DNA of 64,000 nt, from assembly GCA_949155365.1 (NCBI GenBank), contig CASCUT010000003.1, positions 1-64,000 on the forward strand. The letters run 5' to 3'. Within the stretch, counting starts at the first letter, position 1, and each line of letters starts with the position of its first letter. This DNA is from an uncultured Clostridia bacterium. Lineage in GTDB: Bacteria > Bacillota > Clostridia > TANB77 > CAG-508. The notes below the pieces were generated by a model. It did no database searches, was not told the origin of the DNA, and worked only from the letters and a program-made list of their open reading frames with translations. Position numbers and translations under genes: made by a program. Of this stretch, positions 9,867 through 22,326 are shown piece after piece.

Positions 9867-11171
9867 ATGAGAAGCGAAAAAGGGGTAACTTTAATTGCAT
9901 TAACCATTACCATCGTAGTACTAATCATATTATCTTTTACTCTTGTTGTTAATATTGAACCATATAAGGAAAGAAAAGCAAAAACAAATTTTGAACTTGA
10001 TATGCAAAGGCTTAAGGAGGAAATAAGCCAATATTATGCAAGAACGAAAAACTTACCAATTATAAATCGTTATACCAATCTTTCTATGCTAGAAGGAATA
10101 AGAAACTTAAACGATAACGATAACTATTATGTGATTGATATCAATCAACTAGATGTCAAATTATATAATGGAATAGACTATAAAACGATTGTAACAAGAG
10201 GGCAAGAAGCAGACATAAGTGATTTAGTAGATGTCTATATTATTAATGAACAATCTCATACAATCTACTATCCAAAAGGAATAACCTATGGAGGAGGAAC
10301 ACATTATAGAATACCAGAAGTATATAGTGAGATGGCAGACATACAAGTAGTTCCATACTTTAACCCATATATTCCAACCGGTTTTGTACATAAAGAAGGA
10401 GAATGGAATAATGGCTTTACGATAAAAGGTGTTACACAAAATGTAAATGACGAATTTGTGTGGGTACCATGTGTATTAGACCAAAGCAAAGTAAAAGAAG
10501 GAGATACAGTAGTAACCTATCAAAGAATAATGAGTGAAAAATATGCAACGAATCTAACAAATATGACAGATGGAGATAGTAGTGCCAATGAAATAAAAGA
10601 AAGTGTAAGAAAATACGGAGGTTTTTATATTGCTAAATATGAAGCAGGACTAAATGGAACAGTTGATAATAACAGCTTACAAACGGTAACCGCAACCGAT
10701 GGACAGGTTAAACCACTATCACAAGCAGGAAAAGGAGTATGGAATAATATAACAAGAGCAGATGCGATAACAGTATCAAAGGCAATGATTAATCAAGAGG
10801 CAACAAATGTAAAATCAACATTAATAAGTGGAGAAGCATGGGATACAACATTACAATGGATAGTAAATGCATCAGATAATAGAAATAAAGAACCAAATAA
10901 AGATTATGATATAAATTCAAGTGGAAAAGGATGGTATAATGATGTATCATCAAATGCATTACATGTAACAGGTTATCTCAATTCAAAGGTCAATAACATC
11001 TATGATATGGCGGGAAATGTATGGGAATGGACAACGGAAAATTCGAACAATTATATACATCGTGGAGGTTGCTATGTTGATCCATTAACCTATATCTATG
11101 TCGCATTTCGTAATGATAATAATTATGGTAAGGGAATACATGTTGGATTTAGAGTGGTTATGTATAAGTAA
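9867..11171 (+). CDS. pilin-like leader protein with C-terminal FGE-sulfatase-like (C-lectin fold) domain
   Basis: EKG|VTLIALTITIVVLIIL leader; GGFYIAKYEAG, YDMAGNVWEWTTEN, RGGCY...HVGFRVV typical of the FGE-sulfatase family. Confidence 0.8.
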   Translation: MRSEKGVTLIALTITIVVLIILSFTLVVNIEPYKERKAKTNFELDMQRLKEEISQYYARTKNLPIINRYTNLSMLEGIRNLNDNDNYYVIDINQLDVKLYNGIDYKTIVTRGQEADISDLVDVYIINEQSHTIYYPKGITYGGGTHYRIPEVYSEMADIQVVPYFNPYIPTGFVHKEGEWNNGFTIKGVTQNVNDEFVWVPCVLDQSKVKEGDTVVTYQRIMSEKYATNLTNMTDGDSSANEIKESVRKYGGFYIAKYEAGLNGTVDNNSLQTVTATDGQVKPLSQAGKGVWNNITRADAITVSKAMINQEATNVKSTLISGEAWDTTLQWIVNASDNRNKEPNKDYDINSSGKGWYNDVSSNALHVTGYLNSKVNNIYDMAGNVWEWTTENSNNYIHRGGCYVDPLTYIYVAFRNDNNYGKGIHVGFRVVMYK

Positions 11172-16224: not shown

Positions 16225-16275
16225 TGGAGACAATAGGGTGACAGCCCGAAATTGTACCAAGGAGGAAAAAAAGAA

Positions 16276-17496
16276 ATGAAGAAAAAAATAGTGCCGTTTA
16301 TATTAAGTCTTATTTTAATAGGGAGTATTAATCTTCCTGCCTTTGCAACTAGTACGAATGACTTAAATAATCAAAAAAATGAAATAAATGACAAAATATC
16401 AGAAGCAAAAGAACAACAAAAAGAAGTAAAAGAACAATTAAGTGAGCAAATGCAAGAAATTTCAAACTTAGATGTTTCTATTTCACAAGTAGAAGAGCAA
16501 ATTAAACAATTAGAGGCTGAAATTGCACAGTTAGAAAGTTCAATTAAACAAGAGCAAGAGAAATTAGAAGAAAAACAAAGAGAACATCAAAAGAATCAAG
16601 AATTAATGGAAGAACGTTTAGTTGTAATGTATGAACAAGGAGAAACTTCTTTCTTAGATATGCTATTTAGTTCCCAAAATATTGTTGAATTTATTTCAAA
16701 CTATTATCTAATTTCACAAGTAACAGAATGTGATAGAGAACTATTAGACACCATAGAAAAAGAACAAGAAGAAATTGAAAACACAAAAACACAGTTAGAA
16801 GAGCAAAAAGGAAAAGTAGACAGCAATAAAAGAGAAAGAGAAACCAAAAATAGTTTACTAAGAACACAAAAAGCACAAAGACAAGAAAAAGCAAACGCAC
16901 TATCAGAAGAAGAGAAAAAACTACAAAATGATATCGAAGCCTATAAACAAAAAGTAGCTTCTATTGATAAAGAGATTGAAGAAGCAATTAGAAAAGCAAT
17001 GGAACAAGAAAAAAATCAAGGAACAACAGGAGGAAGTGGTTCAAAATTTGATGGTACTTTTTGTTGGCCACTAGATTACTCGCCAAGAAGAGTAACATCA
17101 GGAATGAAAATAAGATGGGGAAGATGGCACAAAGGAATTGATATTGGAACCAATGCAGAAGTAGGAAAAAGAGTAGTAGCGGCAGCTTCTGGAACCGTTA
17201 TTTATAGTGCTTACCAATCTGGAACATCTTCTAGCCCAGGATATGGTAACTATTTAATTATCTATCATGGAGGAGGATTTGCAAGTTTATATGCACATAT
17301 GCAATCAAAAGCAGTATCAGCAGGAACCTATGTATCACAAGGACAAACAGTAGGTTATTCAGGAAATACAGGAGGCGTAGCACCACATTTACACTTTGAA
17401 ATTAGAAAAGCATCCTCTGTTGGAAACTTCTTTGGAGTAAACAATTGGTTAGATCCATTAGATTACTTACCAGGAGGCTATACAAGAGTGGATTAA
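16276..17496 (+). CDS. coiled-coil murein hydrolase, M23 family (PcsB/EnvC-like)
   Basis: Signal peptide, long coiled coil, HKGIDIGTNAEVGKRVVAAASGTV and HLHFEIRKA. Confidence 0.92.
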   Translation: MKKKIVPFILSLILIGSINLPAFATSTNDLNNQKNEINDKISEAKEQQKEVKEQLSEQMQEISNLDVSISQVEEQIKQLEAEIAQLESSIKQEQEKLEEKQREHQKNQELMEERLVVMYEQGETSFLDMLFSSQNIVEFISNYYLISQVTECDRELLDTIEKEQEEIENTKTQLEEQKGKVDSNKRERETKNSLLRTQKAQRQEKANALSEEEKKLQNDIEAYKQKVASIDKEIEEAIRKAMEQEKNQGTTGGSGSKFDGTFCWPLDYSPRRVTSGMKIRWGRWHKGIDIGTNAEVGKRVVAAASGTVIYSAYQSGTSSSPGYGNYLIIYHGGGFASLYAHMQSKAVSAGTYVSQGQTVGYSGNTGGVAPHLHFEIRKASSVGNFFGVNNWLDPLDYLPGGYTRVD

Positions 17497-17518: not shown

Positions 17519-18668
17519 ATGAAACGTAAAGTTATTTCAATTTTAGTTGTGATTAGTTTACTATCATGCTTTTTCTTTGTACCTAAGACAAAATCAGCTA
17601 CATTAGAAGAGCAAAAACAAGAAAACCAAAATAAACAAGAACAAGCACAAAAAGAACTAGAATATGTGGAAGAGGAATTATCCAGTGCCATTGTAAAAAT
17701 ACAAGAACTAGATGATAAAATAAAAATAGCAGAAAACGAAATCGCACAAATGGATACAAAGTTAGTAGTCTTAGAAGCAAATGTAAAAGAAATCACAGAA
17801 AATTTAGAAAAAGTAGAACAAAGTTATCATGAAAATAAAAAAATAATGGAAGATAGGTTAGTTGTCATGTATGAATGTGGCAATGTTTCCTACCTAGACT
17901 TATTATTAAGCTCTGCTAATTTAGTAGAATTTTTATCCAACTACTATTTCATTGAAGAATTGATAAGAAGCGATAATGAACTATTGCAAAACATAGAAAA
18001 TCAAAAAAATGAAATAGAAACCAAAAAAGAAAAATTAGACAAAGAAAAAGCAGAATTAAAGTTGTTAAAGGTAAAACAAGAACAAACTAGAATTATTATG
18101 CAAAACAATAAAACAATGCAACAAAATCAAATAGATCGTTTATCAGAGGATGAAAAGATACTACAACAAAAAATACAAGAGTATAAACAAGAAGAACAGA
18201 GAATAGAAGCCTTAATACAATTAGCAGCGAATAACTATGAATACAGTGGAGAATTTACAGGTGGTGTCATGGCATGGCCAATTGCAAAAAGTGGAACATA
18301 TATTACATCAGGCTATAGTACAAGAGAACATCCTATCCAAGGTGTGATAAAATTCCATACGGGAATTGATATTGGAAATGCAGGTTTTGGAGCTCCTATC
18401 ATAGCAGCAGCAGATGGAGTAGTAACATTAGCAAGTTACTATGGAGGCTATGGAAATTGTGTTATGATTAATCATGGAAATGGAATTTCTACTCTATATG
18501 GACATGGACAAAAAATATTAACAACAGTAGGAACACAGGTTAAAAAAGGAGATTTAATTATGGAAGTGGGTTCTACCCGGAATGTCAACAGGACCACATT
18601 TACATTTTGAAGTAAGAGTAAAAGGCTCCCATGTAAATCCACTACCATATTTACAAGCATCACAATAA
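17519..18668 (+). pseudogene. coiled-coil M23 murein hydrolase, interrupted by +1 frameshift near 18576-18578
   Basis: Frame 0 ends ...[13 protein letters not shown]; removing one C from tctacccgga gives [32 protein letters not shown]. Confidence 0.85.
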
Positions 18669-18758: not shown

Positions 18759-19952
18759 ATGAAAAAAGAAAAAATGCAAAAAATATATAAGAGTATCATG
18801 CTCGTTCTATTAACATCTGCTATTACCTTTATTATCACATCCATTAGTATGTATCAATCCGTAGGAAAAGGAAAAGTAAAATATGTAGCGAGTGATACCA
18901 TTGGAAGAACATTTCAAACTTTTCGTAGTTTTATCGAAAAAAATTACTTAGGTGAAATCAATGATAATGCTATGCTAGAATCTGCAATTAAAGGTTATGT
19001 AGAAGGGTTAAATGATGAATACTCCGAATACATTACCAAAGAGGAAATGGAAGAATATATGCAAGAAGCCATTGGAAAATATGTGGGAATTGGCATCTAT
19101 ATTGCGAACAATACGAAAACCAATCAAATTGTAATATTAATGCCAATGAAAGGGTCGCCAGCAGAAGAAGCGGGATTAAAATCAGGAGATGTTATTACCA
19201 AAGTAGATGGAGTATCCTATACAGGAGAAACACTAAGTGAAGCTTCGAGTGCCTTAAAAAAAGAAGAAGGGACCAAAGCACAAATAGAAATTCTAAGAGA
19301 AGATCAAGTGTTAAATTTTGAAGTAGAGCGTAGAGAAGTGAAAATCAATCATATTGAGACAGATGTGTTAGAAAATAAAATAGGCTATATGCAAATTTCT
19401 ACTTTTGATGAGGGATGTTATAACGAATTTAAACAAAAATGGGAAGAACTAAAAGAAAAACAAATTACTTCCCTAATTATCGATTTACGAAACAATGGGG
19501 GAGGAATTGTACAAGAAGCTACCAATATTGCAGATATGATGGTGGAAAAAGACAAAACATTATTAATTACAGCAAGTAAGAATAAAGAGGAACATATAAC
19601 AAAAGCAAAAGAAGAAAAAGAAATTAATATGCCGATTGTTATCTTAGTAAACGAAAATACAGCGAGTTCTTCTGAAATTTTAACAGCAGGAATCAAAGAG
19701 AATAATAGTGATGTAACGATTATAGGAAACAACACTTATGGAAAAGGAGTCATTCAAACCATATTTAATTTAACGGATGGAAGTGGAATTAAACTAACCA
19801 CAAGTGAATATTATACACCAAACCATAATGTTATTAATAAAGTAGGAATCAAACCAGATATTGAAGTAGAATTTCCAGAGGAAGAAAATTTATATACCAT
19901 AGAACGAGAAAAAGACCCACAATTACAAAAGGCAATTGAAGTATTAAAATAG
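18759..19952 (+). CDS. C-terminal processing peptidase, S41 family (CtpA)
   Basis: PDZ (MKGSPAEEAGLKSGDVITKVDG), IDLRNNGGGIVQEATNIA, NENTASSSEILTAGIKEN. Confidence 0.95.
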   Translation: MKKEKMQKIYKSIMLVLLTSAITFIITSISMYQSVGKGKVKYVASDTIGRTFQTFRSFIEKNYLGEINDNAMLESAIKGYVEGLNDEYSEYITKEEMEEYMQEAIGKYVGIGIYIANNTKTNQIVILMPMKGSPAEEAGLKSGDVITKVDGVSYTGETLSEASSALKKEEGTKAQIEILREDQVLNFEVERREVKINHIETDVLENKIGYMQISTFDEGCYNEFKQKWEELKEKQITSLIIDLRNNGGGIVQEATNIADMMVEKDKTLLITASKNKEEHITKAKEEKEINMPIVILVNENTASSSEILTAGIKENNSDVTIIGNNTYGKGVIQTIFNLTDGSGIKLTTSEYYTPNHNVINKVGIKPDIEVEFPEEENLYTIEREKDPQLQKAIEVLK

Positions 19953-19988
19953 AAAAACGAAAATTAAAATTTCTTATATCAGAATAGT

Positions 19989-20025
19989 AAAAGAACGCAG
20001 GAAGTGATGTTTCCTGCGTTCTTTT
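19989..20025. terminator. bidirectional terminator
   Basis: aaaagaacgcaggaa gtgatg tttcctgcgttctttt between convergent genes. Confidence 0.88.
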
Positions 20026-20028
20026 GAA

Positions 20029-20241
20029 CTATCGTTTAATGGTATTTCCACATTTATTGCACTTCCAAATCTTAAGACTAGTCCCATAGAGTTTTTTGGA
20101 AATGGGATAAGCACCAAGTGTCATAAGGGTTACAAATCTTTCAAAAGACTTTTCTTCCGCACTTCGGGGTGCTTTCCCTAAATAAATATGATTTGTGTAA
20201 TTGGTACACGACCGACAAAATTCAATTCTGTTTTTTGACAT
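20029..20241 (-). CDS. 70-aa putative zinc-ribbon protein
   Basis: MSKNRIEFCRSCTNYTN...WKCNKCGNTIKR: paired CxxC; RBS aggagg on minus strand. Confidence 0.6.
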   Translation of the reverse strand: MSKNRIEFCRSCTNYTNHIYLGKAPRSAEEKSFERFVTLMTLGAYPISKKLYGTSLKIWKCNKCGNTIKR

Positions 20242-20282
20242 AAAAATCCTCCTACAATGTAATATGAAATAGTATAACATAA

Positions 20283-20327
20283 TTTTACATAATATTCAAT
20301 AGAAAAAGCTTGAATATTTATGTAAAA
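20283..20327. promoter_or_regulatory. near-perfect 17-bp inverted repeat in divergent intergenic region
   Basis: ttttacataatattcaa ... ttgaatatttatgtaaaa. Confidence 0.5.
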
Positions 20328-20387
20328 TAGTATATAATAAAAATGTTAATACAAATTTGCAAATATTATAATAGGAGGAATTTCATT

Positions 20388-21098
20388 ATGATGACTTTAA
20401 TAGGTGGGCTTTCAGGAAAAGATCGGATTAGCTATGCTACATCCAATCGAGCAATAACAGCGATTCGGAAAAAGAATAAAAGAATTGAGTTAGTAGAAAG
20501 TAGTAAGCTGAATATAAGTAATCGGTTTTCAGTTGTATTGAGCATTATTTATATTATCCTTTGTATTACAAAAGTATATTGTTTTATTCCCTGGATTGAA
20601 AATGGTGTGATTGAGAAATGGTGCTACTTTATACCAACGGTTTACCTTTTCATTGGTATGATTATTTCGGTTTTGAAATTTAGATATACAGAGGGCAAAG
20701 AAGCATTAAAAAATCATGGGGCAGAGCATAAGGTTTTTATGGCATATAAACAATTGAAACGAATACCTACAATAGGAGAGGCTAAGAAATTTTCAAGAAT
20801 TAGTCGATATTGTGGAATTGCCAGAACTTCTGCATTTATTGTATCACAGCTCATAGGATTTATCATATACACCTATATGGGATATCGAATTTCAGAAATT
20901 TTGCTCTATCTAGTTCCGGTGGTTCTTTGTAACGTATTTCCTTTCTATCTGCTGGGGAATTTTGCACAACTTTTTACTACCGCTAACCCAGAAGAGAAAA
21001 ACTTAGAGTTAGCAATAACAGCACTTACTGAATTGAAGCAAAGAGAGGAAAAAGCAGAAATTGGAGACATGATACACAATATAATACTAAGAAAATAG
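20388..21098 (+). CDS. DUF1385-like membrane protein, first gene of putative RiPP cassette
   Basis: NHGAEHKVFMAYKQLK...RYCGIARTSAF...LGNFAQLFTTANPEEKNLELAITAL resembles DUF1385 landmarks (HGAEHK, RCG, TTxxPxxxxxEVAIxAL); RBS aggagg. Confidence 0.7.
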   Translation: MMTLIGGLSGKDRISYATSNRAITAIRKKNKRIELVESSKLNISNRFSVVLSIIYIILCITKVYCFIPWIENGVIEKWCYFIPTVYLFIGMIISVLKFRYTEGKEALKNHGAEHKVFMAYKQLKRIPTIGEAKKFSRISRYCGIARTSAFIVSQLIGFIIYTYMGYRISEILLYLVPVVLCNVFPFYLLGNFAQLFTTANPEEKNLELAITALTELKQREEKAEIGDMIHNIILRK

Positions 21099-21137
21099 CA
21101 AGAACTTAATAATCAATTTCTAATAAGGAGACAGATT

Positions 21138-22025
21138 ATGATTCATGATTTTACAATTGGAAGAAGTGATTTTTCAGTTACGGTGTATGTCCCTTGGAAT
21201 TGTACAAACAATTGCAAGTTTTGTCCTTCAAAAAAAGACTATGAGACAATAAAGGGAGATTTCGGACGGTTAAAACAAAGCTTACTGCTAATTCGAAAAT
21301 CCATTTTGCCAATCGTAGTATTTACAGGAGGAGAACCGAGTGCAGATGTCGATAAATTACAGGAATTATTATCGATGGTAGATAATAAAGTGGTATATAT
21401 CAATACCAGTTTACCCAAAAGGAATAGTAAAGAATTTATTGATATCGTAAACCATACAGAATGTATTAAGAGCATCAGTATTTCCAGACATGAGCCAACT
21501 TATGAAGCAGATTCAAAATTGCTACATCATATTGTAGAGGATGAAGTAATTGCGACTATCAAGAAGCCAGTAAGAATTAATGTGGTTTCACAAAAGGATG
21601 ACACTTTTTCAATTGGAAATATAGCCAATTATGTAGAAAGATGGAGCAAAGTTGCAAAACAAAAGGAAGGTGGAGCAGGAACGCTTGTCTTAAACTTAAG
21701 AGGTAATTATTGCCAACAAAAAAAGGAAGAATTGCATGAAATGACCAATAATAAGGTAATCAATGATTTAGCACGTACCTATTATTATCAGTCACATACT
21801 TTCTGCAATGTCTGTGATACCTGCACTTTTTTAAAACGGAATGAAAAAAGAGAAAGCGAATTAACCATTTGTTATCACCGTGGAATGATGACAACAGCAG
21901 TACCGTTTGGAAATATCATAGAACTGAATGACTTGATTATACTCCAAAATGGTGATATATGCTACGACTGGGACGGCAAGAAGGAAGGTATATCAACATT
22001 TTTGGATATAATACAACAAAAATAA
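21138..22025 (+). CDS. radical SAM protein, putative peptide maturase
   Basis: CTNNCKFC (CxxxCxxC), VVFTGGEPS; C-terminal FCNVCDTC...CYHRG Cys cluster. Confidence 0.88.
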   Translation: MIHDFTIGRSDFSVTVYVPWNCTNNCKFCPSKKDYETIKGDFGRLKQSLLLIRKSILPIVVFTGGEPSADVDKLQELLSMVDNKVVYINTSLPKRNSKEFIDIVNHTECIKSISISRHEPTYEADSKLLHHIVEDEVIATIKKPVRINVVSQKDDTFSIGNIANYVERWSKVAKQKEGGAGTLVLNLRGNYCQQKKEELHEMTNNKVINDLARTYYYQSHTFCNVCDTCTFLKRNEKRESELTICYHRGMMTTAVPFGNIIELNDLIILQNGDICYDWDGKKEGISTFLDIIQQK

Positions 22026-22045
22026 CAAACAAGGAGGAAAATGCT

Positions 22046-22270
22046 ATGTCATGTGGTGGAGGTTCTTTTGGAGGCTGTGGGAGTTTTTCTGGAATGAGAA
22101 TACCACTTTCTACTGGAGGATGTGGTGGGGGTTCCTATTTAAACATCTCAGAAGGAGGCTGTGGCGGAACTGCTTTCACAGTAGAGAGCATAGGAGGTTG
22201 CGGGGGCTCACTCCGGGCTTCAGAAGAAGATATTCGAAGGGTATTTGAATACATCCGAAGAAGACGATAA
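22046..22270 (+). CDS. 74-aa Gly/Cys-rich peptide, putative RiPP precursor
   Basis: ATG at 22046 after aaggagg; three 13-aa repeats STGGCGGGSYLNI/SEGGCGGTAFTVE/SIGGCGGSLRASE with Cys 26, 39, 52; charged C-terminal tail EDIRRVFEYIRRRR. Confidence 0.75.
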   Translation: MSCGGGSFGGCGSFSGMRIPLSTGGCGGGSYLNISEGGCGGTAFTVESIGGCGGSLRASEEDIRRVFEYIRRRR

Positions 22271-22285
22271 GAAAAAACTGAATAG

Positions 22286-22326
22286 TCAAAAAGACAGAGT
22301 ACCTAGTTGGTACTCTATCTTTTTTT
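22286..22326. terminator. bidirectional terminator
   Basis: aaagacagagtacc tagtt ggtactctatcttttttt between convergent genes. Confidence 0.85.

Follow-up and report, generated by a model that had tools for sequence, protein, structure and literature searches.

The radical SAM enzyme encoded at positions 21138–22025 and the small peptide encoded directly downstream of it (22046–22270) form a conserved two-gene unit, and this pairing is well supported by the comparison of orthologous loci. The enzyme is most likely a stand-alone twitch-type maturase which makes cysteine-based crosslinks at each GGCG motif of the peptide. The overall explanation, a peptide-maturation unit in which the enzyme would recognize a C-terminal follower and introduce thioethers, is given slightly better than even chances.

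The window, i.e., the whole stretch of DNA analysed, comprised positions 1–64,000 of contig CASCUT010000003.1 from assembly GCA_949155365.1 (uncultured Clostridia, TANB77; CAG-508). The features of the locus are the following, the z-scores expressing the folding energy of a hairpin against shuffled sequence:

19989–20025, no strand assigned: long inverted repeat with A/T flanks, predicted bidirectional terminator (−23.8 kcal/mol, z = −8.1)
20310–20338, plus strand: promoter-like sequence TTGAAT-17-TATAAT (10 of 12 consensus positions; consensus match only)
20388–21098, plus strand: DUF1385-family membrane protein of 236 aa (Pfam PF07136)
21138–22025, plus strand: radical SAM enzyme of 295 aa with a twitch-like C-terminus, putative maturase
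22032–22037, plus strand: AGGAGG ribosome-binding site of the peptide gene, read from the sequence
22046–22270, plus strand: putative substrate peptide of 74 aa
22286–22326, no strand assigned: hairpin followed by a T run, predicted bidirectional terminator of the unit, which also ends the convergent dapL (z = −5.2)

The open reading frames for the DUF1385-like protein, the radical SAM enzyme and the peptide were all found on the plus strand in the same direction, 39 and 20 nt apart, each preceded by an AGGAGG-type ribosome-binding site. The sequence-only reading had described three co-directional genes with their own ribosome-binding sites and gaps of 20–40 nt, flanked by bidirectional hairpins at 19989–20025 and 22286–22326, and both parts of this description were confirmed. 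The sequence at 20310–20338 is the best candidate for the promoter of a transcript carrying the three genes in the window genome. No RNA element was matched in Rfam and no defence system in PADLOC.

The first hairpin separates a ctpA-like gene (plus strand, upstream) from a small ORF at 20029–20280 on the minus strand. This ORF, placed between the hairpin and the three-gene stretch, encodes 83 aa with two cysteine pairs and a zinc-ribbon or rubredoxin-like look, and matched no family at cut-off. Elsewhere in the window, the products of 1070–2791 and 9867–11171 showed prepilin-like N-termini (GITLIALVITIIVLIIL) and are possibly pilin-type or secreted proteins. Two adjacent EnvC-like paralogues (coiled coil plus M23-like; 16252–17496 and 17519–18610) are located between ftsX and ctpA.

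Four enzyme orthologues were identified, the other three being 68–75% identical to that of the window. The neighbourhood co-occurrence check proposed with the sequence-only reading placed the peptide gene directly downstream of the enzyme in all four loci, 13–22 nt past the enzyme stop codon, and AGGAGG also preceded the peptide ATG in the three additional loci (L002–L004). Among 392 genomes of the order, the enzyme was found only in the window genome (G000) and in G028, and a profile made from the four peptide sequences recovered the same two genomes with E values from 1e-29 to 1e-34. A third match of the profile, in G332 (E 5e-4), lay inside a repetitive frame of 2706 codons and was judged to be due to chance. 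A scan of GTDB contigs added two enzyme loci, L003 and L004, and a family search in 393 genomes found the enzyme in G898 and G899, both of which also contain the peptide. Since the contig coordinates of G898 and G899 match those of L003 and L004, the total was counted as four species in two bacterial families. The pair is therefore rare: within the window's genus the enzyme was present in one of 27 genomes, and within the family of G028 in one of 37. No relative of the enzyme or the peptide was found in viral contigs, nor any enzyme relative in plasmids.

Codon comparison gave dN/dS values of 0.06–0.18 for the enzyme and of 0.22–0.37 for the peptide where computable, indicating that purifying selection acts on both genes. 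Conservation in four species, the own ribosome-binding site and the dN/dS values identify the peptide ORF as a real gene. As expected for a RiPP system, the putative precursor gene was conserved beside the putative modifying enzyme in 4/4 loci. The two genes are adjacent in all four loci and, within the order, are confined to one shared set of genomes, so that the peptide is very probably the target of the enzyme. At 1.3 kb from the pair, L003 contains a further radical SAM gene of the SPASM type, nearest to TIGR04133 but under its cut-off, with a 146-aa unmatched protein encoded directly upstream of it (L003:6497–8584); this arrangement is not kept in L004.

It had been proposed that all three genes constitute a RiPP cassette, with the DUF1385 protein helping in export, processing or immunity. 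The enzyme–peptide part of this proposal stands, since the pair is found in 4/4 loci, whereas the DUF1385 part does not. The protein itself belongs to PF07136 (41.2 bits, gathering score 22.1), but in L002, L003 and L004 its gene is absent beside the enzyme. Upstream of the enzyme lies a gene for a leucyl-tRNA synthetase, as judged by sequence, in L003 and L004 and one for a ZIP transporter in G028, and sigma-70-like promoter sequences lie directly upstream of the enzyme in L002 (12/12 consensus positions) and L004 (11/12). In addition, the genome of L004 contained no DUF1385 protein at E ≤ 0.001, and the close homologues of the window protein in the same genus (46–49% identity) adjoin pgsA/priA-like and other unrelated genes and are not linked to such a peptide. 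A true three-gene cassette, with the membrane protein responsible for export or processing of the modified peptide or for protection against it, would agree with the common direction, the 39-nt gap, the position of the best candidate promoter upstream of the DUF1385 gene and the shared terminator; as the content of the site after ctpA varies from species to species, the genes may also have arrived together. Against it stand the gene order in the three orthologous loci, two of them with promoter-like sites of their own, and the scattered homologues, by which membership of DUF1385 in the cassette was ruled out; this explanation is largely refuted and quite improbable. With the best promoter-like site lying ahead of the DUF1385 gene, the three genes may be co-transcribed in the window genome, an arrangement that is not conserved. 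The DUF1385 gene is probably a co-transcribed bystander here rather than a conserved component of the unit. Beside the enzyme–peptide pair, the orthologous loci showed no conserved gene for an exporter, a peptidase or immunity.

The position following ctpA, adjacent to dapF/dapL, is occupied by other genes from one species of the genus to the next (19952–22325 in the window and L046:14773–17598), and in G134 four unrelated genes lie between ctpA and dapF/dapL. Since the site differs in each related species, no clean insertion border was obtained from empty-site comparison. A sub-family of short DUF1385 proteins with the common N-terminal motif GGxSxxDRIxF....TAIR (L053–L056 and L016) was observed in unrelated contexts across these genomes.

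The translation of the middle gene contained all three motifs that had been read in it: a CxxxCxxC motif for the SAM cluster (Cys22/Cys26/Cys29), invariant in all aligned relatives, a GGEP motif at residues 64–67 and a C-terminal CNVCDTC (C223/C226/C229). The Pfam Radical_SAM score of 27.2 bits is slightly below the gathering score of 29.5; the orthologues and the predicted fold, in which the CxxxCxxC motif lies on a partial TIM barrel, leave no doubt that the enzyme is a radical SAM protein. The predicted structure (mean pLDDT 76.6, pTM 0.79; weak near C275 and at residues 252–264) aligned over nearly its whole length with MoaA (TM 0.58); EpeE and SkfB, two enzymes that modify RiPPs, were also among its best fold matches.

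C223, C226, C229 and C275 are invariant across the four orthologues and represent candidate ligands of an auxiliary 4Fe-4S cluster. No match to the SPASM domain (PF13186) was obtained in Pfam at E ≤ 1 and, as the conserved C-terminal cysteines are only four, they would suffice for one auxiliary cluster (twitch-like), not for the two of SPASM. The enzyme N-terminus begins about 13 residues ahead of the first barrel strand in the model, which leaves no room for an RRE, and no match to a PqqD-like RRE (PF05402) was obtained in the four enzyme genomes, in a search that did detect its controls.

Four distant relatives of the enzyme (L010–L013, in G765, G614, G392 and G732) are full-length homologues, 31–35% identical, with common CxxxCxxC, GGEP, SRH and DWD motifs. 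They are solitary radical SAM proteins of another Clostridia family, without a conserved neighbour. In contrast to the enzyme described here, they come without a GGCG peptide in any of the four genomes, and the three included in the alignment have C223 and C229 but neither C226 nor C275. The four-cysteine set accompanies the presence of the peptide, which, in these few sequences, fits a twitch-like auxiliary 4Fe-4S cluster used for work on the peptide.

The peptide (22046–22270) has the translation MSCGGGSFGGCGSFSGMRIPLSTGGCGGGSYLNISEGGCGGTAFTVESIGGCGGSLRASEEDIRRVFEYIRRRR. It starts with an SCGG motif, followed by four GGCG motifs with short hydrophobic stretches between them and by a conserved basic C-terminal segment (ASEEDIRRVFEYIRRRR). 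The description of the last gene as encoding a repeat-bearing Cys/Gly-rich peptide was therefore correct, and since four GGCG motifs were obtained in 0 of 100,000 residue shuffles (p < 1e-5), the repeats are not due to amino acid composition. Neither the conservation of the repeat motif between species nor the conserved segment at the C-terminus was part of the sequence-only reading. The four peptides are 67–81 aa long, with 4–5 cysteines each in GGCGG-like motifs, successive cysteines being mostly 13–16 residues apart. They share the pattern M-S-C-G-G and then GGCG(G/S) units, each with a short hydrophobic stretch (LRIPIxS, YLYxS, TxFSVDS) of conserved pattern, and end in GGCGGRxxASxxDIxxxFxxxRxR. 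Outside the repeats the peptides are most strongly conserved towards the C-terminus and not in the N-terminal region, the usual position of a leader, and the C-terminal segment is conserved to the same degree as the GGCG motifs. An AlphaFold model showed a helix at the C-terminus besides three short strands; since its confidence is low (pLDDT 53), the helix is only a weak prediction. No Pfam family was found for the peptide, no NCBIfam model matched any of the four peptides at E ≤ 1, and no signal peptide was seen.

Since the enzyme is without an RRE, its most likely docking site would be the basic, conserved segment at the peptide C-terminus; whether this segment serves as a follower is considered an even matter. 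From there the enzyme would work along the N-terminal part, with its 4–5 cysteines in GGCGG-like motifs. The CxxxCxxC cluster would cleave SAM to the 5′-deoxyadenosyl radical, which would abstract a hydrogen from a backbone C-alpha (or from a C-beta) adjacent to each GGCG motif, and the cysteine thiol would close a thioether with the help of the auxiliary 4Fe-4S cluster on C223/C226/C229/C275. One enzyme would thus act repeatedly along one peptide. The thioether chemistry is put forward tentatively, at rather below even chances: the cysteine motifs of the peptide, together with the candidate auxiliary-cluster cysteines of the enzyme, are compatible with thioethers of the sactipeptide/ranthipeptide kind, which is not proof, and the conserved peptide cysteines could also bind metal or stay free. 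Neither a signal peptide nor a conserved exporter or protease was seen, so that the modified product may even remain in the cell.

The same pair could carry out another chemistry, i.e., epimerisation, desaturation or C–C crosslinking of Val, Ile, Tyr and Phe residues in the hydrophobic stretches, with the GGCG motifs binding metal or forming turns. The epimerase EpeE (YydG) was the top match of the enzyme in a PDB profile search (22 bits), besides being among the best fold matches, and the conserved pattern of the hydrophobic stretches also speaks for this reading. EpeE needs no leader and binds two 4Fe-4S clusters (PMC8326336), which was counted in favour of this reading as well. The similarity to EpeE is, however, limited to the core domain, without close sequence kinship. 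Moreover, a peptide epimerase requires a free H-donor cysteine. Cys109, conserved among the four orthologues and not in the distant relatives, was rejected as catalytic H donor: the model puts it at the N-terminus of a barrel strand, on the side opposite the active site, so that the cluster ligands would be the sole remaining cysteine candidates. Such chemistry is accordingly rated as unlikely.

A radical SAM gene beside a small gene can also be an activase or regulator pair instead of a maturase and its substrate. An activase generating a glycyl or comparable radical on a glycine of a small radical-bearing peptide would find a Gly-rich target here, and the enzyme has a weak similarity (20 bits) to the NrdG2/NrdG3 activases. 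These matches are confined to the core domain and fall far short of the cut-offs (131 and 152 bits). The presence of four or five equal motifs also points to a repeated modification and not to a single radical site, which makes this role highly improbable. Alternatively, the peptide might be a small metal-binding or regulatory protein, the enzyme acting on a small molecule and the adjacency being selected for regulation only. Its 4–5 cysteines could bind Fe-S or Zn, the lack of a signal peptide is in keeping with this, and the enzyme fold is also near those of MoaA and viperin-like enzymes acting on nucleotides. This is nevertheless improbable, since the relatives without C226 and C275 come without the peptide and the pair travels together through different gene contexts.

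Regarding the preferred reading, a maturase with its repeat-bearing substrate, several known systems follow the same logic. In the His-Xaa-Ser system a small repeat peptide (HxsA) is likewise encoded beside radical SAM enzymes (HxsB/HxsC), and HxsC (TIGR03977) was the best NCBIfam match of the enzyme, albeit weak and in the core domain only (24.4 bits, cut-off 267.9). In contrast, the repeat here is Gly-Cys-Gly and not His-Xaa-Ser, and the window locus has neither an HxsB partner nor a second adjacent radical SAM gene. The ACGX, CXXX-repeat, Cys-every-fifth and SCIFF pairs also combine a small peptide of repeated cysteines with an adjacent radical SAM maturase; their enzymes generally contain SPASM domains, and none of their precursor or maturase models matches the pair. 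The EpeE/YydG epimerase (PDB 8ai1–8ai6) and the sactisynthase SkfB (6efn) share with the enzyme the RiPP-modifying radical SAM fold and an extra cluster-binding C-terminus, but are only 12–15% identical to it and have unlike substrate peptides. In addition, SkfB has an N-terminal RRE (PMC8326336), for which the enzyme here has no room.

The comparison with known maturase families (SPASM, CXXX-repeat, SCIFF, GeoRSP) in Pfam and NCBIfam placed the enzyme in none of them. The NCBIfam models for SCIFF, CXXX, GeoRSP, ranthipeptide and sactipeptide systems were not matched above cut-off, and no curated equivalog was found for the enzymes, only weak core-domain matches. The view that the combination is not a named class is thus upheld, as neither the enzyme nor the peptide could be assigned to a named maturase or precursor family of NCBIfam. 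In the open-access literature on HxsC, GGCGG/glycine-rich radical SAM RiPPs, GrrM and DUF1385, to which the search was confined, no description of the pair was found. A repeat peptide with a radical SAM enzyme is known logic, and the pair matches no curated family tested. It is a doubtful but conceivable prospect that the unit defines a RiPP class with a single RRE-less twitch-type radical SAM enzyme, a C-terminal follower and one crosslink per GGCGG, possibly with glycine alpha-carbons as acceptors, giving a leaderless, multiply crosslinked Gly-rich ladder.

If confirmed, the pair would be an enzyme–substrate system of unusual layout, with no N-terminal leader, no RRE and, apparently, no SPASM domain, and unusual also in its follower-type recognition and repeated Gly-Cys-Gly sites, in a group of small-genome Clostridia that has hardly been cultured. 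At 295 aa, the enzyme is both small and self-contained, so that its chemistry can be tested directly and would potentially be useful to crosslink designed peptides.
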